DNA of 18,613 bases, from positions 1 through 18,613 of the forward strand of contig JAUWXV010000049.1 in NCBI GenBank assembly GCA_030616165.1, given 5' to 3'. Within the stretch, counting starts at the first letter, position 1. The number at the start of each line of letters is the position of its first letter. Below the pieces are notes generated by a model. It was not told the DNA's origin, ran no database searches, and saw only the letters and a program-made list of their open reading frames with translations. Below are positions 1,079-18,613 of the stretch, one piece after another. The position numbers were made by a program, and so were the translations under genes. The stretch comes from a bacterium. GTDB lineage: Bacteria; SM23-31; JAUVVT01.

Positions 1079-2053
1079 TCATTTTTTCGAAAGATTTTTT
1101 TGACAAAGACAGCGTAATCTTTGTCGTAAAATAATTCCACCTTTCATTTCATGAAGCCAAACATAAAAAAACAACGGCATATATGTCATCAAATACAATA
1201 CAAAATACTTCATACTTATGAATACACAAAAACGCATAGCCTCCCGTGCTTGCCTTCTTTCCCCTCGTAACATATATTCTGTCGACTGCACAGACGCAAC
1301 TCCGGCACGAAATAATCGAATCTCATCTTGATATCTTTCTTCAAATTTTAGGATTTGTTTAGATAATTTATTTAATATATATAGTTTTTCATCTTTGAAT
1401 TTATGAAAATTTTTCGCTGAACTCATGTTGGAATGTAAGCGGTATACAGCTAATGGCTCCTTCTGATAGCCTGCCTGTGTCTTGTAAAGCAGTCTTAAGA
1501 AAAAATCATACTCCTCGCAAAGATCAAGTTCTTTATCGAACCAATGACCCATATCATCCAATAATGTTTTTTTGATTACCACGGTTTGCAAATTCACGGG
1601 ATAGTGAACTAAAAAAGTACGGAAAACTGAACCTTCTGGCATTTTTGCCCGCATAGAACGCAGCAAACGCTGTTTTTTATCTTGCAGGACATAAGTGTTT
1701 GAATAAAGGAATCCGTGCTCTGGATGGGTATGAAAATAACGTAGCTGGGTTTCAAGTTTATGGGGCAGCCACATATCGTCATGATCAATGAAAGCAATAT
1801 ATTTTCCGTGAGAAAGTTTTATCGCTTCATTTCTAGAAAATCCAAGTCCTTTATTGTCTTGATATTTATATACAATCGGATAGCCTTGCTTTATATAATG
1901 CTCAATAATTAATTCTGTGGAATCAGAAGAACCGTCATTAATAATAACCAATTCCCAATCCTTATACGTCTGATTAACAATGCTATCTAATGTCTCTTTT
2001 AAATATTTCTCGGAATTGTAACAACATAGATTAATACTAACCTTGTGGTTCAT
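1079..2053 (-). CDS. GT2 family glycosyltransferase
   Basis: This 324-residue protein has a GT-A fold family 2 catalytic domain. It opens with VSINLCCYNSEKYL, then INDGSSDST (D40, nucleotide binding), GLGFSRNEAI near residue 69, and the metal-binding DHDD at 90-93. An acidic EEYDFF near 180-185 is a candidate for the catalytic base. A hydrophobic stretch near 278-302 followed by a basic tail suggests membrane association on the cytoplasmic side. It probably adds one sugar from a nucleotide-sugar donor to the lipid-linked repeat unit; donor and acceptor cannot be read from the sequence. Its ATG lies 17 bases inside the end of the preceding aminotransferase gene, implying translational coupling. 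Length and motifs are complete. Confidence 0.92.
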   Translation of the reverse strand: MNHKVSINLCCYNSEKYLKETLDSIVNQTYKDWELVIINDGSSDSTELIIEHYIKQGYPIVYKYQDNKGLGFSRNEAIKLSHGKYIAFIDHDDMWLPHKLETQLRYFHTHPEHGFLYSNTYVLQDKKQRLLRSMRAKMPEGSVFRTFLVHYPVNLQTVVIKKTLLDDMGHWFDKELDLCEEYDFFLRLLYKTQAGYQKEPLAVYRLHSNMSSAKNFHKFKDEKLYILNKLSKQILKFEERYQDEIRLFRAGVASVQSTEYMLRGERRQAREAMRFCVFISMKYFVLYLMTYMPLFFYVWLHEMKGGIILRQRLRCLCQKNLSKK

Positions 2054-3179
2054 TAACTGTAACCTTTTTTGAAAATTCAGTCATTGATTTAATTACCAAG
2101 TCAACATCGTCATCAGACATATCATAATATAAAGGTAAGGTTAAAATTTCATTACACACTTTTTCTGTTACAGGAAGTGGTTTATTATATTTTTGAAAAT
2201 ACGGCTGTATATGATTAGCTATATAATGAATCCCACTACCTACCCCTTTTTCTTTTAAAAAATCCATTGCTTCATCCCTCTTGTCTCCGAGTATGCGAAC
2301 AATGTAAGAAAAAGGTGCTACCCGATTAAGGGCCCATTCTAGTAATTGCACTCCCTCTAAATTTCTTAGTTGCTCATTGTAACGCTTAATAATACTTCTT
2401 TTTCTTTCAATAAACAAATCAAGTTTTGCAAATTGAGCCAGACCTATCGCGGCATTAAAATTACTCATGTGATAGCGGTACCCCTGGGTGGTAACATCGT
2501 AAAACCAGCTTCGCTTTCGCTGTCCTTTATATCTATGCCAAGCATCTTTATCAATTCCTAACAGCCGTTTTTTACGAATTTCCTCAGCCCTATCAGAATT
2601 GGAAAGAACTACCGCCCCTCCTTCTCCACAAGTAATATTCTTAATCGGATCAAAACTAAAGCAAGTTATATCTCCAAAACTACCAATCTTTTTCCCTTTA
2701 TATGAAGAGCCAAAAGCATGGGCGGCATCCTCAATAACAAAAATTTTATGTTTTCTGCCAATATCCAATAAGGCATCCATATCGCAAGCATTGCCACAAT
2801 AATGAACGGGCATAATTGCTTTAGTTTTTGAAGTTATTCTTTGTTTTGCATCTTCAATATCAATATTTAAAGTTTTAGGATTAATCTCACAAAACACAGG
2901 ACTGGCTTTAAGTGCAGTAATTACTTGTATACTCGCACAAAAAGTAAGTGATGGAACAATTACTTCATCTCCTTCTTTAATGCCAACAGCATCTAAGGCA
3001 AGGTGTAATGCGCTAGTCCCAGTATTGACAGCAATCACATGTTCCGCGTTCAAATATTCTTTAATTTTATTCTCAAATTCATAAACTGTTGCACCCAGTC
3101 CAAGCCAGCCGGTATCAAAAACTTTTTTGATTTCTTTTAATTCTTCCTCCCCTATTGAAGGACGTGATGTTGGCAGCAT
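2037..3179 (-). CDS. DegT/DnrJ/EryC1 PLP-dependent sugar aminotransferase
   Basis: This 380-residue protein of the DegT family transfers an amino group, usually from glutamate, to a keto-sugar nucleotide. Visible family motifs are the start PSIGEEELKEI, GTSALHLAL at 54-62, the cofactor-contacting EDAAHAFG at 150-157, and the catalytic lysine K180 in SFDPIKNITCGEGG. The 380-residue length is usual for the family. The start is well supported: ATG 3179 is preceded by GGAAGG seven bases away. It overlaps the downstream GT2 gene. The likely role is an NDP-amino-sugar for the repeat unit, such as a 4-amino-4-deoxy sugar. It is not in the class V family that makes 2-aminoethylphosphonate, so it is not the obvious phosphonate transaminase. 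A PseC role in pseudaminate synthesis is possible, but the gene is far from pseF and pseI. Confidence 0.93.
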   Translation of the reverse strand: MLPTSRPSIGEEELKEIKKVFDTGWLGLGATVYEFENKIKEYLNAEHVIAVNTGTSALHLALDAVGIKEGDEVIVPSLTFCASIQVITALKASPVFCEINPKTLNIDIEDAKQRITSKTKAIMPVHYCGNACDMDALLDIGRKHKIFVIEDAAHAFGSSYKGKKIGSFGDITCFSFDPIKNITCGEGGAVVLSNSDRAEEIRKKRLLGIDKDAWHRYKGQRKRSWFYDVTTQGYRYHMSNFNAAIGLAQFAKLDLFIERKRSIIKRYNEQLRNLEGVQLLEWALNRVAPFSYIVRILGDKRDEAMDFLKEKGVGSGIHYIANHIQPYFQKYNKPLPVTEKVCNEILTLPLYYDMSDDDVDLVIKSMTEFSKKVTVNEPQG

Positions 3180-3204: not shown

Positions 3205-3414
3205 TTAAGAAAAAGACTGATAGGTTAAACAGCTTTTATACTGTTGCCTTTCCTCTTCATGCGATGGATTCTCATAAACATCAATCATTCTTTCATAATG
3301 ATGCGCGACACCGCCGCTGCTTCTACCTGTCCAATTATGGAACGAGACCGTCGAATTTTTTCTGTAAACATTTCTGACATAAACAATATTTTCAAAAACA
3401 GTTAAGTGAAAAAT
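3205..3414 (-). pseudogene. Possible remnant of a decayed gene (70-codon open frame without a normal start)
   Basis: The gap between the radical SAM gene and the aminotransferase contains a minus-strand frame open from 3414 to a TAA at 3205. The residues look coding-like, including NSTVSFHNWTGRSSGG and AHHYERMIDVYENPSHEEE. This frame overlaps the last codons of the radical SAM gene out of frame. It has no ATG until 3288, which would leave only 27 residues, and no evident ribosome binding site. Its base composition looks less AT-rich than its neighbours. I do not recognise the family. It may be the 3' end of a disrupted gene, or chance. Confidence 0.25.
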
Positions 3415-4874
3415 CTAAACAGCTTTGCAGGGAAACCGATTGGATCATTCAAAAGCTTACTAAAACCATCTATTATCAACATGTAGGGACATTTCCTATA
3501 TTTAGATTTTAATAGATACCTACGTCCTTGTTTTAAGACTCTTTTTAAATCGTCGCCATTCCAATCCTCGGTAGCAATACAAAAGCTGCGAATAAATAGA
3601 TCATCAAAATTGAATTCGGGATTAATATATTCATTCTTAACGCAGATATTATAAATCTCTGTGCCCGGATAAGGGGTCGCTACTGATATATGCGGAGTAT
3701 AACATCCACATTCAGCAGCAAAATGGAAAGATTGCCACATATCTTCAATTTTTTCGCCAGGCATACCAATTACCAAAAACATTCCATAATCTAATTTTAT
3801 TTTTTTGCAATATTCAGTTAATTTTTTAATCTTGGATAACTTCAAGGGTTTTCTTATAATATTATCAAGAACATGTTGGGCACCACTCTCTACTGGAAAA
3901 TTTAATTTTATGCACCCTGATTGCTTTATAAGATCTAATATATTTTCAGTTAGAGACCAAGCCCCAACGCCGTTTGGTGTATCCCAAACAAAATCAAACT
4001 TTTCTTCTATCATACGAGAAAATAATTCTGTTGCGCGTTGTGGGTTGGCGGTAACATTATCATCTTCAAACATTATTTCTTCAACACCATACCGATTTTT
4101 CAATAATCTCATTTCTTCCAAAACATTATCAATTGATCTTAATCTGTATCTGTTTCCCCAGACTTTATGCGCACTACAAAAAGTACATTTAGCAGGACAT
4201 CCCCTCGATGTTATAATCGGGCTATATCTATTCTTATGCCGTGTACCATGTGAGGCTTCAAGACCGAAATATCTATCAAGTTTCATAAGGTGATATGCAG
4301 GAAAAGGTATTGAATCTAAATCGCTTATCCATTTTTCTTTATTGTTTATAAAAATATTTCCTTTGGATTTCCAACCTAAACCATCAACAGAAGTAATATC
4401 TTTTTCTTGGATAAGCTTGCAAAGCAAATCTTTAAACGAAGCTTCTGCTTCACCAAGCAGCAAAAAATCACAACAAGGATCCCTCAAAACTTCTTCGTGG
4501 CAAGCGGTTGCATGTGCGCCACCAGCCACAGTGATGCAATTTGCTTTAGTTTTTTTAATTAATGAAAATATATGATGGTATATTTTGTGTTGCCTGCTAA
4601 ATTGACAGTTAATTCCAATCATGTCAGGGTTATATTCCGATATTTTTTCTTGAATTTCACTGTCCGAGAGACCAACACGGACAATATCTTTATTGACCTC
4701 TTCTTCATGACCCCATCCAAGCATAAGAGAATCTAAAATTTTAATTTCTATACCCATCTTCTCAATAATTGCCGCTAAATACCCTAAGCCCATTGGGGGT
4801 AATGGATTTATATCTCTATGCGATTTGAAAGTAAAAGCAGGGGACACTATTAACAAAATCTTTTTAATCTTCAT
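3402..4874 (-). CDS. B12-binding-domain radical SAM protein
   Basis: This 490-residue protein has the two-domain build of cobalamin-type radical SAM enzymes. Residues 1-160 look like a Rossmann-type B12-binding domain, with PLPPMGLGYLAA near 24, ITVAGGAHATACHEEVL near 114, and FLLLGEAEASF near 137. The radical SAM core follows, with the CX3CX2C cluster motif at C226, C230 and C233 (SRGCPAKCTFCS). Further core segments are IMFEDDNVTANP, FPVESGAQ and FLVIGMPGE. Such enzymes bind a 4Fe-4S cluster and SAM, and many methylate unactivated carbon or phosphorus; others do different radical chemistry. Because the operon makes HEP and a CMP-activating domain, the analogy is Fom3, which methylates cytidylyl-HEP in fosfomycin synthesis. 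That link is inference from context, and the substrate could equally be a sugar or lipid. The start is the ATG at 4874, 84 bases after the previous gene, with a weak AGAAGAAG site. Confidence 0.9.
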   Translation of the reverse strand: MKIKKILLIVSPAFTFKSHRDINPLPPMGLGYLAAIIEKMGIEIKILDSLMLGWGHEEEVNKDIVRVGLSDSEIQEKISEYNPDMIGINCQFSRQHKIYHHIFSLIKKTKANCITVAGGAHATACHEEVLRDPCCDFLLLGEAEASFKDLLCKLIQEKDITSVDGLGWKSKGNIFINNKEKWISDLDSIPFPAYHLMKLDRYFGLEASHGTRHKNRYSPIITSRGCPAKCTFCSAHKVWGNRYRLRSIDNVLEEMRLLKNRYGVEEIMFEDDNVTANPQRATELFSRMIEEKFDFVWDTPNGVGAWSLTENILDLIKQSGCIKLNFPVESGAQHVLDNIIRKPLKLSKIKKLTEYCKKIKLDYGMFLVIGMPGEKIEDMWQSFHFAAECGCYTPHISVATPYPGTEIYNICVKNEYINPEFNFDDLFIRSFCIATEDWNGDDLKRVLKQGRRYLLKSKYRKCPYMLIIDGFSKLLNDPIGFPAKLFRFFT

Positions 4875-4958: not shown

Positions 4959-7118
4959 TTAATAATTTCTATCTATATTTATCGAAAAAAACTCTTTAAG
5001 CATATCTTCCCCGTACATTGGATATGTATTAGGATCTCTAAATAAAGGATACGACTTTATATTCTGTTCAACTGCAGCAATCAGCGGTATCATTGGTATT
5101 ATTGAAGATGATATCTGTTGTTCATCACAAAAATACTTTAGCCATTTGACGACATATTTTATAGCTCCATATTCATTCAAATAGCTGTCGAAAGATTCAT
5201 TCCTTAAATAACTGCTTTGCCACTTCATGATTAGCGGGTTAAATATCAGAGTTGCTAAATCAAAAAAAGGAGAACCGTCTTTTTCTAAATGTTCAAAATC
5301 AATCAAACCAACCCTTCCGTCTGCAAAAAACAAAACATTATCAAAATCGTAATCTCCATGCACTGAACAAGTTAAAATATCTATTTCAGACATAATTCGC
5401 GTTTTGTCTTTTAGCTCTAAAATATTTCGCCTTATTTCATCAGAAATATTCCGCTGACATTTAAAATATTTATTTACGACCTCATTTACGATATTTTTCA
5501 TATTGGATTTACCATTTGAAGTACTCTGTTGAAATTCCACAAGCGTATTTATTGCCTGTTTAATTTTCCCATCTATCTTTTTTAAGAAAACTTTTTCCTC
5601 AGCGAATCCAATGCTTTTTCTAAAGAATCGATTGTTTATGCCAATTCTATCAAAACCTTTATTTATAATATAATGTGATGTAAGTTTAATATTTTTTGCA
5701 CCTAAGAAAGTAGTAACAAATATTTCTAAGCCATCTACAGTTTCAGAAAATATAAATTTAGGTATTCGAAAATTTAAGTTTTTGTTCATTAACATCTTGT
5801 CAGAAAGCCACTTCATATTTTCCGTTTCAGTTCGCAATCCAGATATTTTAACCTCGCGAGCAATTTTACAAAAATACAAAGGGTAATTATTATAGTCGTA
5901 TATGATCATATTGGTAGAATTGCGATTTTTATAACGATTGTTGGAAATAACAAAATTAACGTTGTCACTCCTCTTAAGAACATTTACTTTTATAAGCGAG
6001 TTTTGTATTCTTGGAATTAATTCATTTTGATTATTTTTTGCGCAAATTGCAAACAAACTCGGAGTAACATGCTGAGTAATAGACTTAGGTATAAGTGACT
6101 TTACAATTTTATGTAAAATTCTTGGAAACACACCATCTATCTGGACTTCATTTTTAAATAAGCTTGCCATACCTAAAGGGAAAGCTTTTTTTATTTTTAT
6201 GTAATGTGGGAACACTCCATATATTGAACAACTTTCAAAACCGCTTTTTTTTAGAATATTAACCAGTTGCTTTGGAGAATAAATATAGGTTCGATATCCA
6301 CCTTTTCCCACAATTCTGCTTATTTTATCTGCAAAGAAACGTGGCAGAAAAGTAACAAACCTGACATTATTATGATCATCAGGATGTCCTATAAAATATT
6401 GAATACCATATCTATTTTCCATAGCAATGTATAGAGAGCCTTCCGGCTTTAAAACCCGGTGCAGTTCTTTTAAAACATCAATTTGCATTTCTTCAGGGGT
6501 CTTAGGATATACATGTTTTCCGTTTCTTTTACCCTTCCAATGCTTTTCAAGTATTACATCCTCCTCCAATCCAACCCATTCCAAGACTCCATTTAAAATA
6601 ACAAGATCAAAAAAATTATCCGAAAATGGAAGAGATTTTATGAAAGCGGCAAAAGTATGAATATTCTCAAAGCCCATTTGTTTTGCGCGAATTTTTAAAA
6701 ATTCGAGGGTTTCCACGGTCTTATCTACAGCATATACTTCACGATGAAATTGTGCCGCTGGGATTGTTAATCCCCCCCACATACATCCCGCATCTAATAT
6801 CCTGGAATTTTCAGTGGTAGGCCATAAAAACTGACTATCTGCTCTGTAAAAGGGAACAAAATGGTCTGCATACTCTGGAATGATCTCTTTTGCACTATTA
6901 AGCCAGTCACCTGATTCCTCAGCTCTGCGATTTAAATGTTTCATCTTTTCCCGGCTTACATTACACCAGTAATCATCTTTCTGACGAAAATCAGGAATGC
7001 CACGTCTAACTGGATATGTTCTATTGCATTTCGAACATGCCAGCTTATTATCATCTTCATTTAATGTTGCGCGACAGTGTGGGCATACTATTAATTGAAT
7101 TAAACAAGAATTAATCAT
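4959..7118 (-). CDS. Three-domain fusion: zinc ribbon, SAM methyltransferase and APH/choline-kinase-like phosphotransferase
   Basis: This 719-residue protein has three parts. A Trm112-like zinc ribbon uses C12, C15, C28 and C31 and is followed by YPVRRGIPDF. A class I methyltransferase has motif I LDAGCMWGG at 108-116, VDKT near 131, the late motif FFDLVILNGVLEWV near 169-182 and LKELHRVLKPEGSLY near 216-230. A C-terminal aminoglycoside phosphotransferase/choline kinase-like domain has a candidate ATP lysine K418 (YFCKIA), the catalytic loop HGDYDFDN at 587-594, and IDFEH with metal-binding D607. The pairing recalls WbdD, which phosphorylates and methylates the end of some O-polysaccharides, though domain types and order differ. 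It may therefore cap or modify a sugar or the phosphonate group; this is inference. It starts in an ATGA overlap with the CDP-alcohol phosphotransferase gene, so the two are probably co-translated. Confidence 0.88.
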   Translation of the reverse strand: MINSCLIQLIVCPHCRATLNEDDNKLACSKCNRTYPVRRGIPDFRQKDDYWCNVSREKMKHLNRRAEESGDWLNSAKEIIPEYADHFVPFYRADSQFLWPTTENSRILDAGCMWGGLTIPAAQFHREVYAVDKTVETLEFLKIRAKQMGFENIHTFAAFIKSLPFSDNFFDLVILNGVLEWVGLEEDVILEKHWKGKRNGKHVYPKTPEEMQIDVLKELHRVLKPEGSLYIAMENRYGIQYFIGHPDDHNNVRFVTFLPRFFADKISRIVGKGGYRTYIYSPKQLVNILKKSGFESCSIYGVFPHYIKIKKAFPLGMASLFKNEVQIDGVFPRILHKIVKSLIPKSITQHVTPSLFAICAKNNQNELIPRIQNSLIKVNVLKRSDNVNFVISNNRYKNRNSTNMIIYDYNNYPLYFCKIAREVKISGLRTETENMKWLSDKMLMNKNLNFRIPKFIFSETVDGLEIFVTTFLGAKNIKLTSHYIINKGFDRIGINNRFFRKSIGFAEEKVFLKKIDGKIKQAINTLVEFQQSTSNGKSNMKNIVNEVVNKYFKCQRNISDEIRRNILELKDKTRIMSEIDILTCSVHGDYDFDNVLFFADGRVGLIDFEHLEKDGSPFFDLATLIFNPLIMKWQSSYLRNESFDSYLNEYGAIKYVVKWLKYFCDEQQISSSIIPMIPLIAAVEQNIKSYPLFRDPNTYPMYGEDMLKEFFSINIDRNY

Positions 7119-7981
7119 TTATCATTTTTAAGAGAATTCTTAATGTTGTACATAGCAGCATCAAGGGATTTCTCAACCCAACCTTTTTTAATAATATAGT
7201 AACCTCCTATAAATAGTAGGAACCCTTTGATAACAAACGCAATAAAGATAATCCAGGTAACCGAAACAATTGTAAACATCTCAATCAGAATTAAAAGACA
7301 TATAAAATCAACACTTCTTGCCCGAGGGTCCAAAAACGAAGAAAGATATTTAGAATACTTCTCATATTTTCCCAGAATACCAGACTTAACATTCTCATGT
7401 GTTTTACCAGATGTACCAATATTAGTACCTTTTTGTATCTCATTGGAGATAAAACCCTTCTTTGAAATTTCTTCAAAAAGCATTGTTCGAGAAAAAGGCT
7501 TCAGCCTTGTTGCGTAGAAAAACGGGATTAAGGGAATTAAATAAAAGAAAGCGGAATTACCTGTCTTAAAAGCAACGTAAAACCCTAATCCCATCTGGAA
7601 ACCTAAATCATTTAACACGGCTCCATAAACATCCAGAACATGTCCGGTAATAGATGTCTGCCCCGTTATTCTTGCTAGGTGACCGTCACTCCAATCTAGA
7701 ATACCCTTGGTGAAAAATATCAGAATAGCAATAATATGAGTTATATTTGAGGGAATTGCCAGCAAGACACAGCCAAGTATCCCTACTAAACCATAGATAA
7801 TTGTTATTGTATTCGGTTTTATTTTCGTCTTTAATAAGAAATGAACAAGCCAGGTGCTAGCCTCCATATAAAATCTAGCCTTTAAGAAAGTATAGGGATT
7901 TCTCCTCCAATCATTTAAATAGGGAAATTTCTTACTATGATAATCGTATTGATATTTTCTGAGTTCACTTATTTTTTGCAT
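7115..7981 (-). CDS. CDP-alcohol phosphatidyltransferase family membrane protein (atypical active site)
   Basis: This 288-residue protein has several membrane segments, for example near 58-95, 124-155 and 223-262. It carries the CDP-alcohol phosphotransferase signature: D96-W-S-D99-G100-H-L-A103-R104, eight residues, G113, then D117. The family transfers a phospho-alcohol from a CMP-linked donor to a second alcohol and releases CMP in the membrane. The canonical fourth aspartate, four residues after D117, is Ala121 here; the next aspartate is D125. That residue usually acts as the general base, so catalysis may differ. Next to a cytidylyltransferase-PEP mutase fusion, the natural donor is CMP-HEP (or a derivative) and the product a phosphonolipid or phosphonate-bearing lipid-linked sugar; this is inferred. 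The stop overlaps the downstream ATG by four bases. The start at 7981 has no strong ribosome binding site. Confidence 0.9.
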   Translation of the reverse strand: MQKISELRKYQYDYHSKKFPYLNDWRRNPYTFLKARFYMEASTWLVHFLLKTKIKPNTITIIYGLVGILGCVLLAIPSNITHIIAILIFFTKGILDWSDGHLARITGQTSITGHVLDVYGAVLNDLGFQMGLGFYVAFKTGNSAFFYLIPLIPFFYATRLKPFSRTMLFEEISKKGFISNEIQKGTNIGTSGKTHENVKSGILGKYEKYSKYLSSFLDPRARSVDFICLLILIEMFTIVSVTWIIFIAFVIKGFLLFIGGYYIIKKGWVEKSLDAAMYNIKNSLKNDK

Positions 7982-8015: not shown

Positions 8016-9140
8016 TTACTCGAAAACTTGCTTCAATATTGCCTGATTAATCTTTACAGGGTTATTACCAAGCCTTTCTATATTTACATTGTGAATAATT
8101 CTATTAATGTCCGATCGTCTACATACCCCAAGCTTTTTGAAATCAGTTTCCAGGCCTACAGCAAACATTAATTGGTACCATTTTTTTGCAAAATCTTGAG
8201 ATGATTCGCAACCAAATAATTTTCTGATTTCAGCCATAACTTTCACTAAATACCTCTTACCCCTCGTTTCATTTAATGCAGCACTTTTCGGATTAGAATT
8301 AATAATAAAAAATTTACTAAGAGTAAGAGCAACAGCATGTCCATGGGGAATATGATGAAAAACAGTCAAAGGATAAGAAACAGCATGGGCAGCCGTTGTT
8401 TTGCTAATATTAATTGCCCTTCCTGCTAAATGCGCTGCTTCCGCTATTGCTCTACGTGAACTCTTCGTCCCTTTATTTACGGCAGTAACTAAATTGGTCA
8501 GGATTAATTTAATAGCCTTTTTAACATACCGCTTTGATTCTTTGGTAGAGTTAACACTCCAATAAGATTCAATTGCTTGAGATAATGCATCCATTCCGGA
8601 TATAGCAATTTGCTTCTTTGATAAAGATTTTGTCAAGTCTGCATCCACAATTGCTACATCTGGCAAGATATATTTATGGGCTATAGAGTATTTTTTATTT
8701 TTCTTATAAACAACTGCAAAATGGGTTGCCTCGCTTCCGCTGCCAGCAGTTGTTGGTATTGCAATTAAAGGTTTTGTTTTTTTAATGTCAGAACTTAATC
8801 TTACGAAATTCAATTTATCTATTTTATTTACACTAAAAAAATTTATTAATTTTGCCATGTCAATAACACTGCCGCCGCCAATAGCCATAACTACATCAAC
8901 CTTGTTTTTCTTGAATAAGTCTACTCCCAGTTTAACATCTGTAATTTTCGGATCGGAACTGAAATTATTAAAAACAGTTACGTTATAATCTGACAAAATA
9001 TTACCAAGAGACTCTTTTGCTTTGCTTTTACTATAGGATGTTTTTCCTGTAACTAAGAAAATATTCTCTCCAGCAAAGTTCTTAAGCACCTTTTTGCATT
9101 GACTAATCGTGCCAGCTCCTGTGTATTCTTTTTGCATCAT
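8016..9140 (-). CDS. Iron-type (group III) alcohol dehydrogenase, probable phosphonoacetaldehyde reductase (PhpC/FomC-like)
   Basis: This 374-residue Fe-ADH superfamily protein has a nucleotide-binding loop IGGGSVIDMAK near 87-97 and the conserved PTTAGSGSEATHFAV near 129-143. Metal-site residues D184, H252 (AAHAVSYPL) and H266 (PHG) are present. The second metal ligand of typical members, His four residues after the Asp, is Gln188 here (DALSQAIESYWSVNST). As I recall, DALxQAxESYWS also occurs in phosphonoacetaldehyde reductases, but this needs an alignment. The gene overlaps the phosphonopyruvate decarboxylase stop (ATGA), so its substrate is most likely phosphonoacetaldehyde, reduced with NAD(P)H to 2-hydroxyethylphosphonate. 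This step is FomC in fosfomycin and PhpC in phosphinothricin synthesis. It commits the pathway to HEP and away from aminoethylphosphonate. Confidence 0.88.
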   Translation of the reverse strand: MMQKEYTGAGTISQCKKVLKNFAGENIFLVTGKTSYSKSKAKESLGNILSDYNVTVFNNFSSDPKITDVKLGVDLFKKNKVDVVMAIGGGSVIDMAKLINFFSVNKIDKLNFVRLSSDIKKTKPLIAIPTTAGSGSEATHFAVVYKKNKKYSIAHKYILPDVAIVDADLTKSLSKKQIAISGMDALSQAIESYWSVNSTKESKRYVKKAIKLILTNLVTAVNKGTKSSRRAIAEAAHLAGRAINISKTTAAHAVSYPLTVFHHIPHGHAVALTLSKFFIINSNPKSAALNETRGKRYLVKVMAEIRKLFGCESSQDFAKKWYQLMFAVGLETDFKKLGVCRRSDINRIIHNVNIERLGNNPVKINQAILKQVFE

Positions 9141-10264
9141 TTAGATAAAAACTCCATAAAACTATCTTTGTTTTCTTTAAGCGATTTTGGCCTGCTTAAA
9201 TCAATTCTTGAACCACTCTTAACCTTAATTTCTAATAAGGCCGGACCCTCTGTTGTTCTTAAAATCTCTATTCTTTCGCTAATGTCACTAGCTGTGGATG
9301 CCTCTAAACATCTTTTATATCCACAAGCTTTTGCAATATTAACAAAAGATACCGAGAATCCAACAGTTGGTTGTCCACCGACTGAATCATGCGAACCGTT
9401 ATTAATGATGACATGCTTAAAATTGCTTGCCTTCTGTGAACCTATTATTGCCAATGAACCCATATGCATAATAACAGAACCATCACCGTCTAAACAAAAA
9501 ACTTGCCGTGATGGCTTTTCTAGAGCAATTGCTAACGCAATTTGTGAACAATGTCCCATAGATCCTACAACCAGAAAATCTTTATTATGCCCTTGTTCGA
9601 GTTGCTCCCGATATTCATAAAGTTCACGAGAAGCCTTACCTGTTGTTGAAACAACGATATCCCTGGAGTTTAATTTGTCTACAATCAATTTGATAGATTC
9701 TTCCCTTGTTAGCTCAAATGGCGTATCTTTTTTTTGTTCTGGATTATATTCCTTAAATGTGTTTTTTTTTACTACTAATGCAACCGGGGCATTTTTTTCA
9801 GAGGCTATTTTTATAAGGTAATCTAAACAGCCCTTAATCTCTGAATTTGTATCTGGCATAATACGATAAGGGATATCAAGTGTATCGAGAAGTTTTAATG
9901 TAACTTTTCCTTGTTTAACATGTTGGGGTGCATCCTTTATTTCAGGCTCTCCTCTCCAGCCAATTACAATCAGCATAGGTATAGCGTAGACACTTGGATC
10001 ACATAATGACAAAATAGGATTAACTATGTTTCCGAAGCCAGCGTTTTGCATGTAAACTAATGGTATCTTATTCGTAGCCAAGTGATACCCGGCTGCAAGC
10101 GCAATAGCATTGCCTTCATTAGCAGCAATAATATGTTTTTGCTCTGCCGCCCTATCGTCAACACAAGAACAAAATTCTTTGAGAAGTGAATCAGGAACTC
10201 CTGCAAAAAAATCAATGCCATTATCAGTTAAGGCACTGTAAAACTCTAAAGGCGGAATTCCCAT
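9137..10264 (-). CDS. ppd: Phosphonopyruvate decarboxylase
   Basis: This 375-residue thiamine diphosphate enzyme decarboxylates 3-phosphonopyruvate to phosphonoacetaldehyde, the irreversible step that pulls the unfavourable PEP mutase reaction forward. The N-terminal half has the family opening FAGVPDSLLKEFC near 20-32, the cofactor-activating glutamate E50 in AANEGNAIALAAGYHLAT, and QNAGFGNIVNPI near 73-84. The C-terminal half has the ThDP/Mg motif starting GDGS at 260-263 and ending with NN at 288-289, followed by SHDSVGGQPT. The family usually runs about 370-400 residues as one polypeptide, as here. Start ATG 10264 overlaps the pepM stop (TAATG) and has GGAGG seven bases upstream within pepM. 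This adjacency makes the assignment very secure. Confidence 0.97.
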   Translation of the reverse strand: MGIPPLEFYSALTDNGIDFFAGVPDSLLKEFCSCVDDRAAEQKHIIAANEGNAIALAAGYHLATNKIPLVYMQNAGFGNIVNPILSLCDPSVYAIPMLIVIGWRGEPEIKDAPQHVKQGKVTLKLLDTLDIPYRIMPDTNSEIKGCLDYLIKIASEKNAPVALVVKKNTFKEYNPEQKKDTPFELTREESIKLIVDKLNSRDIVVSTTGKASRELYEYREQLEQGHNKDFLVVGSMGHCSQIALAIALEKPSRQVFCLDGDGSVIMHMGSLAIIGSQKASNFKHVIINNGSHDSVGGQPTVGFSVSFVNIAKACGYKRCLEASTASDISERIEILRTTEGPALLEIKVKSGSRIDLSRPKSLKENKDSFMEFLSK

Positions 10265-11565
10265 TAGTAATCCTCCGGAATTAAGGTGAGAATTTCATTA
10301 ACAGGCATACAATATTGTTCAGATGCTTCTTTGCAGCGACCACGCTCAAGAATAGACTGGGCAGTTTTAACCATTGATGGATAAGCACAACGTATTAAAT
10401 GATTTCCGTAGATGACAATGTTTACGCCTAAGTTTTTAAATTCGTCTTCGGTAAAATGAGAAAAGGTAGAAGGCACAACCACTAAAGAGACTCTGTTTTC
10501 TAGTCCGTTATACTGCTGGCAAAATTGCTTTATCTCGCCCCCGTCTTTTTCCTTACTATGAATCATAATCCCGTCTGCCCCAGCATCAATATATGCCTTT
10601 GCCCTTTCCAAAGCATCTTCGATCCCTTTTTTCAAAATCAAACTTTCAATTCTAGCAATAATCATAAAATCTTCTGTTACTAAAGACTTTTTGCCTTCTC
10701 TAATTTTTTCGCAAAAATGCTCAATTGTATCCTGCTTTTGGGTGACATCTGTTCCAAACAAAGAATTGCGTTTAGCTCCAACTTTATCCTCAATAATAAC
10801 TGCTGATACTCCAAGCCGCTCTAGTGTCCTTACCCTAAACCGGAAGTGCTCAATGCTGCCACCGGTGTCACCATCCACAATCATAGGTTTTGTTGTCACT
10901 TCGAAAATCTCTTCTATGGTGCGGAATCTTAACGAAAAATCTACGGCTTCAGTATCAGGTTTTCCCATTGAAGTAGAAAGAGCTAAGCTACTTAGCCATA
11001 TACCCTCAAACTCTTTTACCTGCTCACCATCGGTCACTTTAGTCTTTTCAACAATAAGTCCGGTAATTCCATTGTGAGCTTCCAGAATTCTCACTATCGG
11101 TTTCACAGCAAGCAATCTTCTTAAAGTTTTTAACCTTTTATTTGGCGTAGTGCCCTTTTCCTCCAAAGCATTTATTAATTGTGTTGACGATACCCCTTCT
11201 GTGTATTTGGGTTCAACCAATTTCCCGCCCCATTCTTTTAAGGTATCTAATACGCGTTTGCGTGTTTCTTTCTGTACTCCTCTCCTCCAATCATCCCCAT
11301 GAACAACATAATCGGGTTTTATCTTCCGAAGATTTGGAACATAGTCTAAAGTCTCCTGAGGCACAACCTCAGAGACTCCTTTAATATTTTCAACAATCGA
11401 CTTTCTTTGAGTGTAAGGAATTAATGGCAAGCGTTTGTAACTAGCGATGGCTTCATCGGTCAATAGCCCTACTATCACATACCCTAATTTTTTCGCTTCT
11501 CCTATAATATTCAAATGTCCATGATGAAGCAAATCAGCACTCATACCTACATATACTTTTTTCAT
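10264..11565 (-). CDS. pepM: Bifunctional cytidylyltransferase-phosphoenolpyruvate phosphomutase (Fom1-like)
   Basis: This 433-residue protein joins two enzymes. Residues 1-140 form a TagD/RfaE-type nucleotidyltransferase, with HHGH at 14-17 (the HxGH motif), VHGDDWRRG near 88-96, and TEGVSST at 122-128. Residues about 150-433 are PEP mutase, with [16 protein letters not shown] at 189-204, VDGDTGG at 230-236, and the diagnostic EDKxxxKxNS at 259-268. ARIESL follows at 304-309 and [14 protein letters not shown] at 331-344. PEP mutase creates the C-P bond, making phosphonopyruvate from PEP. The N-terminal domain probably links CMP to the finished phosphonate, as shown for Fom1 with 2-hydroxyethylphosphonate. 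The start is firm: AGGAGG lies five bases before ATG 11565. It begins a coupled operon with the decarboxylase and reductase. Aminoethylphosphonate is a less likely substrate, as no matching transaminase is present. Confidence 0.97.
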
Positions 11566-11598: not shown

Positions 11599-13440
11599 TT
11601 ACAAAGCTTCCTGTAAAAAACATTCGTAATTCCGGTAAAAAAAACGCTTCAGGTACACATCTACAAAAGAGGCATCTTCTACATCTACGCCTTCTAAGAC
11701 GCCGGTTTTGAAAAAATCAGTCAATTGCGTCTTGAGTTCATCCGCAGACTCACTATAAACCACTCTCCGCTTGAGAAGATTGAGAGCATCCTCCGTTATT
11801 GAGCACGATTCCTGGTTGACCATGAGGAAAATTGGCCCGGCATATTGCGCTAACACTTGCAAGAGTGGAGTTGATGGGAAATCAAGGACAACAAATTTAG
11901 GATTATCAGATAAAGCTCTATCGATCGGAATGTCATCATAGGAAATATATTTACACCTCTTCATCTCAATATATCTTTGTAGTTCATGATGCGGCTTATG
12001 ATTCCTTAATCCTTTAATCACGGCCTTACCACCTGCACCTGAACCTAAAAAATCGACTATCTGCTTAACCGCTCCAAACTGCAAGTCTCCGCGCCATTTA
12101 ATATTGATTTGACTGTAAAAGGTTGTAATAACAACAGGTATAAAAAGTCCCTGTGAGTTCCTGGGCTTTCCAGCTCTCGAATTTCTTAGAATTGACTTCC
12201 CGTAGATAACATTTGATCCAACTTCTACACAGGTAGGGGACGTATCACCCATACCTTTTGTGACTTCTTTAATATTACTTTTTCCGAACGATAAAAAGTA
12301 ATCTGTATTCTTATAGTCTGTAATATAATGCTGAAAATGATCCGTATAGCTATAAAACCCGCCGTGCTGCCACACTGCAACCTTTCCACCATTCTCTTTC
12401 GTTTTCTTTATCAGAAAATATGAATGTAAATGAACAGGCGGCAAACTAAAAATTGTTAAATATCGCTTTCCTTTACCTAAACAGTTATCCCAAAACATAT
12501 TAATGTAATTCTTCATCCATTTCACATCGCTTAAATACTGAACAATAGTATCCTGAAAAAATTCAGCGAAATTAAACTCAAATTCATGTAAATCGCTTTT
12601 ATAGGGTTTAACAATATACTCATTATTATCAGAATACTTATATTTGAAGAAAACGTCAGCAATCAAAAATTTCAGCAATTTTCTCCATGAATGCAAGAAA
12701 GGTATTTGTCCGCCATGAAAAACCTGCGGAGACATCTTAGCAGAACATTTAAAAGGTTTACAGTAATTAATCACATTATCGTATGCGGGATTAATCAGAA
12801 TATAATCATAGTTTTTTTTGTTAAAGGACATCGTTTTCCAATAAACGAAATTTATCGAAAGTTTTAATAATGATTTTAAATTGTTTGTTTGACTATAGAA
12901 GATTGTTTTAGGCCTTACCTGACAATCCTGATGCTTAAGGATTTTGACTTTTACATTTTTGTTCTTGAAAAAGGCTTCAACTAAGTTGGTAAATGAAGTC
13001 ATGTTGATTAAGAGCCCCCCGTGATTTACACGTTTATTTCTCTGTATTAAAACAACCTCTTCGACAGAGCACTGATTCAGAAAGTCATTGCAAAATGAAA
13101 TGATTCTATACATAGCAGTCCAAAAGCATAGCCAGAAATACTCTAGAGGAAAAGAATCTTCAAATTCGTCAACCATCTTATTAGCCAATAGCAGTTGTTT
13201 CAGGAATTTTTGTGATTCTGCATAAATCCTCTTGGCAATAATAGAACATTTACTCACCTCGGTTACCCTGGGGATATAATACGAAGCCTCAAATTCTTGC
13301 AGCACAACCTGCATCATTGGAAGAAAACTGAGAGGAACCCACAAAGATTCCTTGGAAACAGCATGTCCGTAAGAATCTTTGAAATCCTTCAGATCATTTT
13401 CATCGATCAAGATACACGCCGTTTTACAATCAGATATCAT
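11599..13440 (-). CDS. Large surface-carbohydrate transferase, GT-B-like (LIC12162-family resemblance)
   Basis: This 613-residue soluble-looking protein has the general shape of TagF/LIC12162-type surface polysaccharide transferases. Its best landmark is VAVWQHGGFYSYTDHF around 354-369, a Gln-His-Gly-Gly loop as in GT-B-like transferases of this group. FLSFGKSN follows near 382-389. A second half has VVLDFPSTPLLQVLAQYAGPIFL near 517-539, resembling the donor-binding segment of GT-B folds. It probably transfers a sugar or phospho-group to the cytoplasmic glycan intermediate. Because it sits 33 bases upstream of pepM, it is one candidate for moving the CMP-activated phosphonate to a sugar, but sequence alone does not show this. 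The ATG at 13440 follows an in-frame TGA directly, so no longer start is possible. Its own ribosome binding site is weak, and a 19-codon frame overlaps the start. Confidence 0.72.
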   Translation of the reverse strand: MISDCKTACILIDENDLKDFKDSYGHAVSKESLWVPLSFLPMMQVVLQEFEASYYIPRVTEVSKCSIIAKRIYAESQKFLKQLLLANKMVDEFEDSFPLEYFWLCFWTAMYRIISFCNDFLNQCSVEEVVLIQRNKRVNHGGLLINMTSFTNLVEAFFKNKNVKVKILKHQDCQVRPKTIFYSQTNNLKSLLKLSINFVYWKTMSFNKKNYDYILINPAYDNVINYCKPFKCSAKMSPQVFHGGQIPFLHSWRKLLKFLIADVFFKYKYSDNNEYIVKPYKSDLHEFEFNFAEFFQDTIVQYLSDVKWMKNYINMFWDNCLGKGKRYLTIFSLPPVHLHSYFLIKKTKENGGKVAVWQHGGFYSYTDHFQHYITDYKNTDYFLSFGKSNIKEVTKGMGDTSPTCVEVGSNVIYGKSILRNSRAGKPRNSQGLFIPVVITTFYSQINIKWRGDLQFGAVKQIVDFLGSGAGGKAVIKGLRNHKPHHELQRYIEMKRCKYISYDDIPIDRALSDNPKFVVLDFPSTPLLQVLAQYAGPIFLMVNQESCSITEDALNLLKRRVVYSESADELKTQLTDFFKTGVLEGVDVEDASFVDVYLKRFFYRNYECFLQEAL

Positions 13441-13570: not shown

Positions 13571-15064
13571 TTACGCAGGCGTTGTCTGTTTAAAGACCGT
13601 CATAATTGTTGATTGCAAAGCCTTATCCTCTTTTATTAATTTGCTGTAATATACTATACAACCAATGACACCGATTATTATGAGAAGTAGTGAAGAAGCC
13701 CCTAAGCACCACTTAGCTAACGCTATTACAATAATTACAGGTGTACACGACACGAGGCATTTCAAGAAAATGCCAAATATCTTTGATAATGGTATCCCCA
13801 CAAAGCGAATCATTAATAAACCAAACCCAAAAAGCGTTAAACCATTTAATAAAGAAAACAGGCCTAATGCTACATAAATATTATTTAACAACCCACCAGC
13901 CATAATTGATATGAAACTTATTATAGTAATTACAAAACGGAAAATAAGCATAACCTCTTGTTTTTCTAAGATATTAGCCAAATTTAAAGCCGGGCTCATT
14001 ATGAAGTTGATAAATATTTTAAAACTGAGAATCTGAGCATAAACTCCTGCCTCTGACCAATTTGCTCCAAAAACAAAAGCAAAAATGTTATCTCCGGCAA
14101 CAGCAAGCACCAAAAACGGCAACATGGACATCCAAATCATCTGCTTAAAAAGTTTTTCCACCAATAAAGCATTTGTACCTTCATGTTTTGCTTTTGCTCC
14201 TCTTTGATAAAATACTTCTCCTATTGAACTACCAATAAAAGTCGTCGGAATGCTTAATACGACAAGGCCTAATCCATAATGGCCAATAACTGTTTTGGAA
14301 AAATAAAACGCAAATAAAAATATTATAAGCGTGGTCGAAAAACGGCTAAATAAATCTGTCCAAAGATTATACATGGGGAATTTACGATACCGCTTGATTC
14401 CCTGAACTATATTATGCCATCGAATGCTGCCTTTAAACAATTGTCCACTTTCCTGCCATATTCTACTCCCAAGGACATAACTCATTGTCAACGAACCGGT
14501 TATGCTGCCTACGATTAAACTACCATGTGTTGCAAAACCAGAAAAACCAGCACCGATAAGGATTCCCTTATTTGCTACAGCATTTGAAATTCTCGATATA
14601 GCGATACGGCCAAATCGCTTATTGCGCACATTCCAAAAACGAAATGAAAGATACAGGCCGTGCGCGAATACGTTTATCGGAATCAACCAAAGATAGACAC
14701 CCAGCTCCGGTGCTTTCAGCCAACGCAAAAGGAACTCTGAACCAATCCAAAGAAGCGGTACTGTTAGCATGGTTATAAGCACCGTAAATACAAGACTAAC
14801 GCATAACATATTGGAAGCTACTGCATCTTTTTGGGGCAAAACTATTGAACTGCTGTAGCCTAGACCGGCAAATACAGCAATCGACATTACGATAGAAGCA
14901 AATAAACGAAACGAACCATAAGCATCAGGGAGATATAATCTGGTTATTATAGGCATTAAAATTATACCCAGAATCTGGGTACATAACGGCGCTGAAGCCA
15001 TTTTTAGCACGTCCTTTGCAAATGTATTTTTTTGTGATGGTAATTTCAATTTTGTATTTTCCAT
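13571..15064 (-). CDS. wzx: Wzx-type polysaccharide flippase (MATE/MOP superfamily)
   Basis: This 497-residue integral membrane protein has about 12-14 hydrophobic segments spread over its length. The N-terminal region VLKMASAPLCTQILGIILMPIITRLYLPDAYGSFRLFASI is typical of oligosaccharide flippases (polysaccharide_synt family), with the Leu-Pro-Asp-Ala-Tyr-Gly element near residues 44-49. The protein should move undecaprenyl-pyrophosphate-linked repeat units across the inner membrane, supplying the Wzy-like polymerase at the left edge. Length is normal for the family. The start at 15064 has AAGGTG about 11 bases upstream. The 143-base gap before it shows no convincing terminator, so the gene is probably cotranscribed with the methyltransferase upstream. 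Which repeat unit it carries cannot be inferred. Confidence 0.93.
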   Translation of the reverse strand: MENTKLKLPSQKNTFAKDVLKMASAPLCTQILGIILMPIITRLYLPDAYGSFRLFASIVMSIAVFAGLGYSSSIVLPQKDAVASNMLCVSLVFTVLITMLTVPLLWIGSEFLLRWLKAPELGVYLWLIPINVFAHGLYLSFRFWNVRNKRFGRIAISRISNAVANKGILIGAGFSGFATHGSLIVGSITGSLTMSYVLGSRIWQESGQLFKGSIRWHNIVQGIKRYRKFPMYNLWTDLFSRFSTTLIIFLFAFYFSKTVIGHYGLGLVVLSIPTTFIGSSIGEVFYQRGAKAKHEGTNALLVEKLFKQMIWMSMLPFLVLAVAGDNIFAFVFGANWSEAGVYAQILSFKIFINFIMSPALNLANILEKQEVMLIFRFVITIISFISIMAGGLLNNIYVALGLFSLLNGLTLFGFGLLMIRFVGIPLSKIFGIFLKCLVSCTPVIIVIALAKWCLGASSLLLIIIGVIGCIVYYSKLIKEDKALQSTIMTVFKQTTPA

Positions 15065-15208: not shown

Positions 15209-16330
15209 TTATAAAGACAACTTGCCCGGCGACACGAAGAAGAGATTTTTTCTGGATGAATTGAGAAGTGTATCCGCCTCGAAATAATCAAACTTCCTGT
15301 CTTTAAAAAATTTCGGCAACTCATCCGGATGAAGCATTGTGTTTGGATCATAGCCGTCATATGTAGTCAATACTACTGCAGAATTTATTGACTCAGGGAA
15401 TCTTTTAAAGTTATCAACGTAATTTTTGACTATATTATTTGGCATTTCAACAAAAGACTGTGAGTTCATAAATATATCTACGGCGCTCTCAAATTTTTCA
15501 ATTTGCCACGGTGCGATACAAAAAATTTCAATATTGTCGTCTGCAGAAAATTTTATTGAATCCAGATGCTTTAGAGTTCTGAAGTCTAAAACCTCGGTTC
15601 CGTAAAACGCCTTTAGATATTGTGTTCCAACATAAAGATTAGGGGGAATGTCGAGATATAAAACTTTTCTAATATTTTTATAGTTTTCAAGCAAAAGGTG
15701 TATGTTAGCTCCGAATCCTCCCCCGATTTCAAATATCGATTTAGCCTCATTAAATTTGATACGCGAAGCAATATTGTCATGCTGTTCAAGAAGGTTTAAA
15801 TAATGAACAGATAAGTCCTGTCCGTCTATTTTGGCCTTTGCTAAACATTTACCCAAAAGTGAATAAGGTACATTATATTTTTTCAGAAGCTCTTTTGTTT
15901 TCTCTTTTAAATTAAGAATTTCTTGAGCATAAACTATACTCATATTTGCGTATAATTTAGTCCATCGCACCTGGGCTTCGAATATAACACTCAGCGGATA
16001 AGTATTCATCACCCACCGGGAGAGCCGTCCCTTAAAACCATGGTTATATGAGTTTCGAATATCTATAAACAAGTTGTCAGCATAGCTCAAACCAATAGCG
16101 TTTTTCGAGCCTCTAAAATCTCCTATGCCGCATCTTTTTATTTCATTCGCCGCATTTTTAGCTTTGGTAGCCCAGTAGGGGCCTGGGCGATAGAGAGGTG
16201 GCTGACCCTTTGAATCATTGAGCATGATGTCAAAAAGTTCAAAGTCATCTTTTAGCTCTATTTTTTGATTTGCCTCTGTTGAAAGTAAAACATTTTTTTG
16301 CGTATCCATATCGTCTCTTCTACTCATCAT
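15209..16330 (-). CDS. Putative sugar O-methyltransferase (NanM-like family)
   Basis: This 373-residue protein resembles the putative sugar O-methyltransferase family named after NanM. The SAM-binding motif I is FEIGGGFGAN at 200-209, followed by LYLDIPPNLYVGTQYLKAFYG near 225-244, which is characteristic of this family. The N-terminal 180 residues, including PLYRPGPYWATKAKNA near 45-60 and HGFKGRLSR near 97, would form the sugar-recognition part. It likely O-methylates one sugar of the surface glycan, either the nonulosonate or a neighbouring hexose. The annotated start at 16330 has only a weak ribosome binding site. A later ATG at 16309 follows AGAAGAGA and may be the true start, giving a protein seven residues shorter. 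There is a 60-base gap to the upstream gene. Confidence 0.82.
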   Translation of the reverse strand: MMSRRDDMDTQKNVLLSTEANQKIELKDDFELFDIMLNDSKGQPPLYRPGPYWATKAKNAANEIKRCGIGDFRGSKNAIGLSYADNLFIDIRNSYNHGFKGRLSRWVMNTYPLSVIFEAQVRWTKLYANMSIVYAQEILNLKEKTKELLKKYNVPYSLLGKCLAKAKIDGQDLSVHYLNLLEQHDNIASRIKFNEAKSIFEIGGGFGANIHLLLENYKNIRKVLYLDIPPNLYVGTQYLKAFYGTEVLDFRTLKHLDSIKFSADDNIEIFCIAPWQIEKFESAVDIFMNSQSFVEMPNNIVKNYVDNFKRFPESINSAVVLTTYDGYDPNTMLHPDELPKFFKDRKFDYFEADTLLNSSRKNLFFVSPGKLSL

Positions 16331-17530: not shown

Positions 17531-18229
17531 TTACAACAACCCCCTGGTTTTGCAAACTTCAAATATTATCTCTGCCGTTTCCCAGTCTTCGATTGTATCA
17601 ATATCCTGCACCAGATGTCGTGGCAGAACCAGTGGAAGGGATTTTTCAGGCCAAATCTTTTTGCTTTCGAGAAACTTCTCGCTATCAAACCAATAAAATT
17701 GCCCCGCATCGCAATAAACATCCTCGAAGTCCTGTGACCTTTTAAGTTCGTTCTCGGGCCAAAGCATTTTAAGGTGACCGTCTTTTGCGATTGTAAGTCC
17801 CCTGAAAATACAGGACTCGAACGTTGTCACAGTAAACACAGATGACGCTCCGCTTTGGGATAATAACGAAAAGCCATCCTGTACCAATTTGCTCGTTACA
17901 AAAGGAGCTGCTGCATAAATACAACAGCAATATTTTACTTTCTCTCCATGATCATTTAGCCAGTTGATCGCATGTTCTAATACCGGAGCAGTTGGGGTGT
18001 TATCGTCTGAAAGTGATTCCGGCCGCATAAAGGGAACCTCGGCACCTGCTTTTATGGCGACATCGGCTATTTCTTCTGAGTCGGTGGAAACGAGCACCTT
18101 TGTGAAAAGACCGCTTTCAATCGCTGCTTTTATCGAGTAATGGATCACCGGGTTGCCGGCAAAGTCCTTGATATTTTTACCCGGTATACGCTTGCTCCCA
18201 CCACGGGCCGGAATAATTGCAACCTTCAA
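17531..18229 (-). CDS. pseF: Pseudaminic acid cytidylyltransferase (CMP-pseudaminate synthetase)
   Basis: This 232-residue protein activates a nine-carbon nonulosonic acid with CTP to make the CMP-sugar donor. It opens with MKVAIIPARGGSKRIPGKN, the CTP-binding signature of CMP-nonulosonate synthetases. PseF-type features rather than NeuA-type ones include CCIYAAAPF at 102-110, RSQDFEDVYCDAGQFYW near 164-180, and LPRHLVQDIDTIEDWE near 202-217. Metal ligands are likely D209 and D211. The start is a TTG at 18229, supported by GGAGG seven bases upstream and by the fit to the family N-terminus. A longer reading to 18352 would add unrelated residues and run into the preceding gene. The 35-base gap after the synthase gene and shared direction imply one operon. 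Confidence 0.93.
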   Translation of the reverse strand: MKVAIIPARGGSKRIPGKNIKDFAGNPVIHYSIKAAIESGLFTKVLVSTDSEEIADVAIKAGAEVPFMRPESLSDDNTPTAPVLEHAINWLNDHGEKVKYCCCIYAAAPFVTSKLVQDGFSLLSQSGASSVFTVTTFESCIFRGLTIAKDGHLKMLWPENELKRSQDFEDVYCDAGQFYWFDSEKFLESKKIWPEKSLPLVLPRHLVQDIDTIEDWETAEIIFEVCKTRGLL

Positions 18230-18246
18230 ACTATCGCCTCCATTCT
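18228..18246 (-). promoter_or_regulatory. Shine-Dalgarno deciding the pseF TTG start
   Basis: Minus-strand AATGGAGGCGATAG precedes TTG AAG GTT at 18229. GGAGG is seven bases from the TTG, the best ribosome binding site in the area. No ATG in this frame near it would give the conserved KVAIIPARGG terminus, so TTG is preferred over the upstream start at 18352. Confidence 0.7.
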
Positions 18247-18264
18247 TATATTCTGCCGTTCCAG

Positions 18265-18613
18265 TTATATTTGTTCCCAGACAAACGGCGTTCCTTTTTT
18301 TATATCTTCTTTTAACTCTCGACCTACAATAGCCTGCTTGTACTTGGGGCACAGAGAGCCTTGGGGGGCAGGCCGTAATACCTCAATCATATCTTCTGTT
18401 ATTTTCGTCCCTTTAGAAATATCTTTTGATGCACGCAGGCATCTTCGCTGAAGAATAACTGTTTCCTTCTCTTCCTCATATAAATTCTTGACGGATGAAC
18501 CGAGAGCTTTTTCCAATGACCTGATACCATCAACCATCTCTTTGAATCCTTTTGGATTCATCGAAAATGGATGGTCGGGACCTTTGCGGGTCTTATCATC
18601 TGTAAAATGCTTT
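18265..18613 (-). CDS. pseI: NeuB/PseI-family nonulosonic acid synthase, C-terminal part (5' end beyond the window)
   Basis: The frame is open from the right edge to a TAA at 18265, covering the last 115 residues. It begins KHFTDDKTRKGPDHPFS, the end of the NeuB barrel with its conserved KHFT and GPDH elements. RSLEKALGSSVK follows, then an SAF (antifreeze-like) domain with LRASKDISKGTKITEDM, VLRPAPQGSLCPKY and DIKKGTPFVWEQI. The enzyme condenses phosphoenolpyruvate with a six-carbon amino sugar. The KxGTPxxW ending and the PseF-like neighbour favour pseudaminic acid synthase. Sialic or legionaminic acid synthase cannot be excluded from this fragment. An ATG at 18561 is internal and not the start. 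Confidence 0.88.
   Translation of the reverse strand, partial: KHFTDDKTRKGPDHPFSMNPKGFKEMVDGIRSLEKALGSSVKNLYEEEKETVILQRRCLRASKDISKGTKITEDMIEVLRPAPQGSLCPKYKQAIVGRELKEDIKKGTPFVWEQI

Follow-up and report, generated by a model that had tools for sequence, protein, structure and literature searches.

The stretch analyzed here (the window) is the whole of an 18,613-bp bacterial contig (JAUWXV010000049.1; G000:C71), belonging to a 3.7-Mb genome that is 90% complete and has few close relatives in our collection. All assigned genes in the window lie on the minus strand, and they include three adjacent genes encoding a Fom1-type fusion of a cytidylyltransferase (CyT) with phosphoenolpyruvate (PEP) mutase (CyT-PepM), a thiamine diphosphate (ThDP)-dependent phosphonopyruvate decarboxylase (Ppd), and an iron-type alcohol dehydrogenase (ADH) (Table 1). 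Together these enzymes would convert PEP to 2-hydroxyethylphosphonate (HEP) and then to CMP-HEP, the form activated with cytidine monophosphate (CMP), and we see the CDP-alcohol phosphotransferase encoded directly downstream as the strongest candidate for transferring HEP from CMP to a surface acceptor. The route from PEP through HEP to CMP-HEP is well supported by sequence comparisons, and we regard the whole scheme, from PEP to CMP-HEP and on to a membrane acceptor, as reasonably probable.

A phosphonate module and its relatives

The enzyme families, motifs, and operon structure can be read directly from the window. All three open reading frames that an earlier, sequence-only reading had described as translationally coupled are present: the stop codon of the fusion and the start codon of Ppd overlap by 1 bp (TAATG, with GGAGG upstream), and the Ppd/ADH junction is a 4-bp overlap (ATGA). 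In profile searches, the PEP mutase domain of the fusion matched TIGR02320 at 395 bits (cut-off 319.6), the CTP_transf_like family PF01467 was also matched, and Ppd matched TIGR03297 at 476 bits (cut-off 312.5), which bears out the earlier assignment of a PEP mutase-cytidylyltransferase fusion and a decarboxylase. The EDKxxxKxNS motif that had been pointed out is likewise visible, as the EDKxxxxxNS motif of PEP mutase at residues 259-268, and the ADH matched PF00465 at 142.5 bits. The CDP-alcohol phosphotransferase gene begins 35 bp past the ADH gene and has a 4-bp ATGA overlap with the gene for a methyltransferase-kinase fusion, so that the transcription unit is probably longer than the sequence-only reading gave; these two genes following the ADH had been overlooked. 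In the proposed pathway, the PEP mutase domain would rearrange PEP to phosphonopyruvate, Ppd would decarboxylate this to phosphonoacetaldehyde, the ADH would reduce the aldehyde to HEP, and the fusion's own CyT domain would couple HEP with CMP.

Comparable neighborhoods were collected in a scan for the fusion across one genome per species, which gave 80 loci of at least 509 confirmed candidates. The final set of 82 loci, from bacteria and DPANN archaea, consists of the scanned loci, the window, and loci L020 and L021, minus loci in which the fusion was not called. Ppd is found in 81 of these 82 loci, an iron-type ADH in 67, and an aminoethylphosphonate (AEP) transaminase in 6, and the ADH and the transaminase never occur together (0/82). 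At 66 other CyT-PepM loci an ADH of the family seen in the window stands in the corresponding place, and profile searches found no PhnW-type transaminase in the window. Surface-glycan genes are the usual company of the fusion throughout the survey; this comparison of 82 neighborhoods, together with the locus itself, supports a surface destination for the phosphonate, which the sequence-only reading had put forward as an inference.

The closest relatives of the fusion among the loci listed belong to Ca. Neomarinimicrobiota (67-80% identity). At three of these loci (L025, L026, and L028) the fusion is 73-83% identical to that of the window per domain, whereas identity falls to 51-53% for Ppd and 32-36% for the ADH, and the Ppd and ADH of the window are nearer to those of other phyla, the best ADH match being 50% identical (L099). 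By these comparisons the operon is a mosaic whose three genes have not moved together. Rice et al. (2019, PMC6697681) reported nucleotidyltransferase fusions in about 60% of PEP mutases, with PF01467 fusions accounting for 23.6% of PEP mutases, and assigned them to surface tailoring. In view of those fusions and of the phosphonolipid clusters already described, the module is known in kind: the three-gene kit is widespread and already recognized, and the locus adds another member.

Evidence for HEP from cytidylyltransferase residues

The best solved relative of the fusion's CyT domain is 5x3d (entry name: PEP phosphomutase), which we take to be the CyTase domain of Fom1, with 64% identity over 133 residues (E = 1e-54). 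The CyT domain of the window shares G7, L35, A39, Q53, Y75, and S127 with Fom1, as do the ADH loci, whereas A, H, V, E, Q, and I predominate in these columns at transaminase loci. A third set of residues (P7, Y/F35, L39, K/E53, and F75) occurs in three viral contigs with a methylphosphonate synthase homolog, as would be expected if the CyT columns follow the substrate, and the resulting three-way division agrees with a substrate code. The 64% identity, the ADH standing in place of the transaminase, and the HEP-type residues jointly support HEP rather than AEP, as well as activation with CMP, in agreement with the PEP to HEP to CMP-HEP route of the sequence-only reading; the CyT domain is a predicted HEP cytidylyltransferase that would yield CMP-HEP.

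Several observations weigh against this assignment. Five of the six transaminase loci are from Clostridium, and the remaining one (L038) shows HEP-type residues; the residue split is confounded by phylogeny, a single lineage dominating each alternative class, and this dominance together with the L038 exception makes the split support rather than proof. The ADH also fell short of the cut-off of the PsrA model TIGR03405 (180 bits vs 423.7), and a relative could take another aldehyde, so its reductase activity on phosphonoacetaldehyde is only probable. As a separate observation, in an alignment numbered by E. coli FucO, on which we do not rely, the family metal ligand H200 is replaced by Gln in the window, as it is in 41 (most) of the aligned ADHs from HEP loci, while D196, H263, and H277 are kept.

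In fosfomycin synthesis, Fom1, Fom2, and FomC lead from PEP to CMP-HEP, which is then methylated by the B12 radical S-adenosylmethionine (SAM) enzyme Fom3 (PMC8158854). The early pathway in Streptomyces resembles the window in its CyT-PepM domain order, decarboxylase, alcohol dehydrogenase, and predicted product, CMP-HEP; unlike that pathway, the window gave no match to an epoxidase such as Fom4 in profile searches and pairs a surface-glycan setting with a CDP-alcohol phosphotransferase. The chemistry of Fom1, Fom2, and FomC, along with a B12 radical SAM protein, is common to the window and fosfomycin synthesis and could suggest that the cluster yields a diffusible phosphonate antibiotic, but we consider this highly improbable: profile searches of the window, a contig cut at both ends, found no epoxidase, dioxygenase, peptide ligase, or resistance gene, and the genes lie within a Wzx-type glycan locus.

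A candidate transferase for the phosphonate

Bacterial phosphonate synthesis is thought mostly to end on cell surfaces. In the window, the CDP-alcohol phosphotransferase would take the phosphonyl group of HEP from CMP-HEP and attach it to a hydroxyl (or a phosphate) on a membrane acceptor. This acceptor is most likely the lipid-linked glycan repeat of the Wzx-type, nonulosonic-acid-containing surface polysaccharide, or else a membrane lipid; both this donor and this acceptor are ones that we infer. The protein matches PF01066 above the Pfam cut-off, and its core, DWSDGHLAR-x8-GHVLD, fits the D-x2-D-G-x2-A-R-x8/9-G-x3-D motif. A model from an 11-sequence alignment has a mean predicted local distance difference test score (pLDDT) of 65.5, with core residues 40-150 forming a block at pLDDT 76-91, and its top Foldseek matches are AF2299 and PIPS, with weaker matches to human CEPT1 and CHPT1. 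Given the adjacent CDP-alcohol phosphotransferase, a lipid or lipid-linked acceptor is no less plausible than a finished glycan.

The transferase might instead put HEP from CMP-HEP on diacylglycerol, as CEPT1 and CHPT1 of the Kennedy pathway do with CDP-choline, and so form a free phosphonolipid with the glycan genes as separate neighbors. Family and fold agree with this possibility, as do the overlapping or tightly spaced genes from PepM through the transferase, but glycan assembly genes occupy both flanks of the locus and the usual transferases at other HEP loci, PF04464 and LicD, act on glycans in known cases; we hold a free phosphonolipid to be possible, if rather unlikely. A further point in its favor is that CDP-alcohol phosphatidyltransferases also belong to the phosphonolipid clusters, of the AEP type, predicted in Nostoc and Burkholderia (PMC5987646). 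These clusters share PEP mutase, Ppd, and an NTP transferase with the window as well, but an AEP transaminase replaces the reductase and no glycan locus accompanies them as described.

Among the CyT-PepM loci, PF04464 is found at 22, LicD at 29, and PF01066 at 11. None of the 11 PF01066 loci also has PF04464 or LicD, compared with 44 of 82 loci overall (P = 9e-5; in bacteria alone 0/4, P = 0.02). Such mutual exclusion is expected of alternative transferases, and we read the three families as probable alternatives for the same step, with the PF01066 protein of the window standing in for the PF04464 or LicD protein of other HEP loci. At the Segatella copri locus (L020, NZ_CP085933.1), which similarly combines CyT-PepM, Ppd, and phosphonoacetaldehyde reductase with a flippase, polymerase, and glycosyltransferases, the fusion is 669 aa long and the transferase is of the CDP-glycerol glycerophosphotransferase type rather than PF01066. 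The Pnt tailoring pathways also place cytidylyl activation of a phosphonate beside glycan assembly genes, as does the window, where a candidate transferase accompanies it, but the characterized PntC enzymes are LicC-like and specific for AEP, unlike the PF01467 CyT of the window with its predicted HEP substrate (PMC6697681).

Only one close homolog of the transferase was found among 386 genomes, in an unrelated genome (G297; 48% identity in the match, 45% in the alignment); there was none in the other 76 genomes of that genome's class, and plasmid and viral searches returned no relatives. In G297 (L165:13091-19473), an AEP transaminase (TIGR03301, 417 bits vs a cut-off of 361) lies on one side of the homolog, and the other side carries a gene of methyltransferase size and one for a B12 radical SAM protein. 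A divergent phosphonopyruvate decarboxylase is encoded on the opposite strand, about 3 kb away. These two contexts tie a rare transferase to phosphonates twice, once with HEP and once with AEP. The PEP mutase of G297 lies more than 1 Mb off, amid housekeeping genes (L197).

The same comparison bears on whether the transferase serves ordinary phospholipid or inositol-lipid synthesis while another gene attaches the phosphonate, for example that of the 613-aa protein, which has no assigned family and lies 33 bp upstream of the fusion. This we find unlikely, since the transferase is far from the named PF01066 equivalogs (best 41 bits vs a 180-bit cut-off), its sole close relative sits in an AEP operon, and the genome has another PF01066-like match elsewhere (G000:C22).

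Certain points nevertheless weigh against the proposed transfer. The fourth Asp of the motif (x3-D), the proposed general base of CDP-alcohol phosphotransferases, is Ala in the window and Ser in the G297 homolog; across 41 collected motif matches it is present in 32 and absent from 9, the G297 homolog being counted twice. The acceptor chemistry may differ given the missing Asp, and classical catalysis is not assured; a phosphate, for instance, might serve as an acceptor without a general base. The subfamily is known from two close members, and the PF01066 cases in the survey are mostly DPANN archaea, which confounds the exclusivity statistic. Loss of the Asp was also considered as a hallmark of phosphonate transferases and dropped, as other PF01066 proteins lack it too.

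Neighboring genes, methylation and distant relatives

In order of transcription, the window begins with the end of a NeuB/PseI gene, followed by PseF, an unassigned protein, an O-methyltransferase, the Wzx flippase, the 613-aa protein, and the three-gene module; past the module come the CDP-alcohol phosphotransferase, the methyltransferase-kinase fusion, the B12 radical SAM gene, a DegT aminotransferase, a family 2 glycosyltransferase (GT2), and, truncated where the contig stops, a membrane protein. The glycan-locus setting of the sequence-only reading stands with respect to the flippase upstream and the glycosyltransferase downstream, but its putative polymerase has no profile match. The true start of PseF is probably downstream of 18265. 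The 613-aa protein has no Pfam or NCBIfam match and one weak match among 290 genomes, and its predicted structure is unusable (pLDDT 33). The combination of Trm112-like, methyltransferase, and APH-like kinase domains in a single protein is an unusual fusion.

Table 1. Features assigned in the 18,613-bp window, in order of transcription
Feature	Coordinates	Strand	Details
NeuB/PseI nonulosonic acid synthase, C-terminal end	18265..18612	-	PF03102, PF08666 SAF
Pseudaminic acid cytidylyltransferase PseF	17531..18352	-	TIGR03584, 309 bits, over cut-off, from residue 44
Putative sugar O-methyltransferase	15209..16330	-	TIGR04371, 137 bits, over cut-off
Wzx-type flippase	13571..15064	-	PF13440
613-aa protein without assigned family	11599..13440	-	33 bp upstream of fusion gene
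CyT-PepM fusion, Fom1-type	10264..11565	-	433 aa; PF01467 + PF13714/TIGR02320; CyT N-terminal (residues ~1-138), PEP mutase C-terminal
Phosphonopyruvate decarboxylase (Ppd, ThDP)	9137..10264	-	375 aa; TIGR03297
Iron-type ADH, probable phosphonoacetaldehyde reductase	8016..9140	-	374 aa; PF00465/PF25137
CDP-alcohol phosphotransferase	7115..7981	-	PF01066
Trm112-like + methyltransferase + APH-like kinase fusion	4959..7118	-	719 aa; PF03966, PF13847/PF08241, PF01636
B12-binding radical SAM protein	3402..4874	-	PF02310 + PF04055
DegT/DnrJ/EryC1 sugar aminotransferase	2037..3179	-	PF01041, 401 bits
Family 2 glycosyltransferase (GT2)	1079..2053	-	PF00535
Membrane protein, possible Wzy polymerase	1..966	-	Hydrophobic open reading frame, off contig end; no profile match

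Fom3 methylates CMP-HEP, which makes the B12 radical SAM gene of the window suggestive: its product could C-methylate CMP-HEP, so that the surface group would be 2-hydroxypropylphosphonate or a P-methylated phosphinate. The best NCBIfam match of this protein is indeed NF038361, the Sden_1168 P-methyltransferase, and phosphonate-linked homologs occur in G297 (238 bits to this model) and in the nanoarchaeal locus L102, two genes upstream of the CyT-PepM fusion (364 bits). However, the match of the window protein (281 bits) is under the family cut-off of 575, as is its match to the PhpK model TIGR04479 (85 bits; cut-off 600), and the gene is parted from the module by the 719-aa gene and an 85-bp gap. 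In a tree of 44 homologs it falls among glycan-locus homologs, within a set of 18 sequences of which 2 are phosphonate-linked, and its nearest homologs sit in loci without PepM; a phosphonate-specific radical SAM clade was sought and not found in this tree. We therefore treat methylation of CMP-HEP as doubtful: a radical SAM protein is present yet not assignable to Fom3, and it is possible that it methylates either the phosphonate or the glycan. More speculative still is the combined proposal of a methylated-HEP surface glycan or lipid made by a CMP-HEP methylase and a new Asp-less CDP-alcohol phosphotransferase subfamily, with a CyT code at positions 7, 35, 39, 75, and 127 separating HEP, AEP, and methylphosphonate.

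Related modules are also found in viral and archaeal sequences. Twelve IMG/VR contigs have a compact HEP-type fusion, mostly with a split Ppd and a short ADH. Contigs L182-L187, L190, L192, and L193 (12-189 kb) are phage-like and carry compact HEP-type modules amid glycan genes, most of them with a split decarboxylase and an ADH of about 260 aa; in L184, the module has neighbors from phage families, namely a dUTPase and a Holliday junction resolvase. In three others (L188:4602-7287, L189:932-3617, and L191:2921-5600), a methylphosphonate synthase homolog lies directly upstream of the CyT-PepM fusion; that of L188 matches 6b9s (E = 2e-71), and the NNGHFMHQ motif is kept in all three. Each of these contigs also has genes for an ADH-like protein and a B12-type radical SAM protein, and two of the three have a split Ppd. 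A search of the literature available to us found no paper on these viral modules. Among Nanoarchaeota, L102:4693-11293 and L198 combine a complete HEP module, a kind of module present in several other DPANN genomes as well, with a PF01066 protein, two radical SAM genes, and a second, small gene resembling a cytidylyltransferase.

If the three methylphosphonate-linked contigs are truly viral, they would represent phage-borne methylphosphonate synthesis. Comparison of CyT residues may offer a quick sequence-based prediction of HEP versus AEP at other loci. The window and G297 point to one candidate transferase subfamily for the step in which a phosphonate would pass from CMP to its acceptor.

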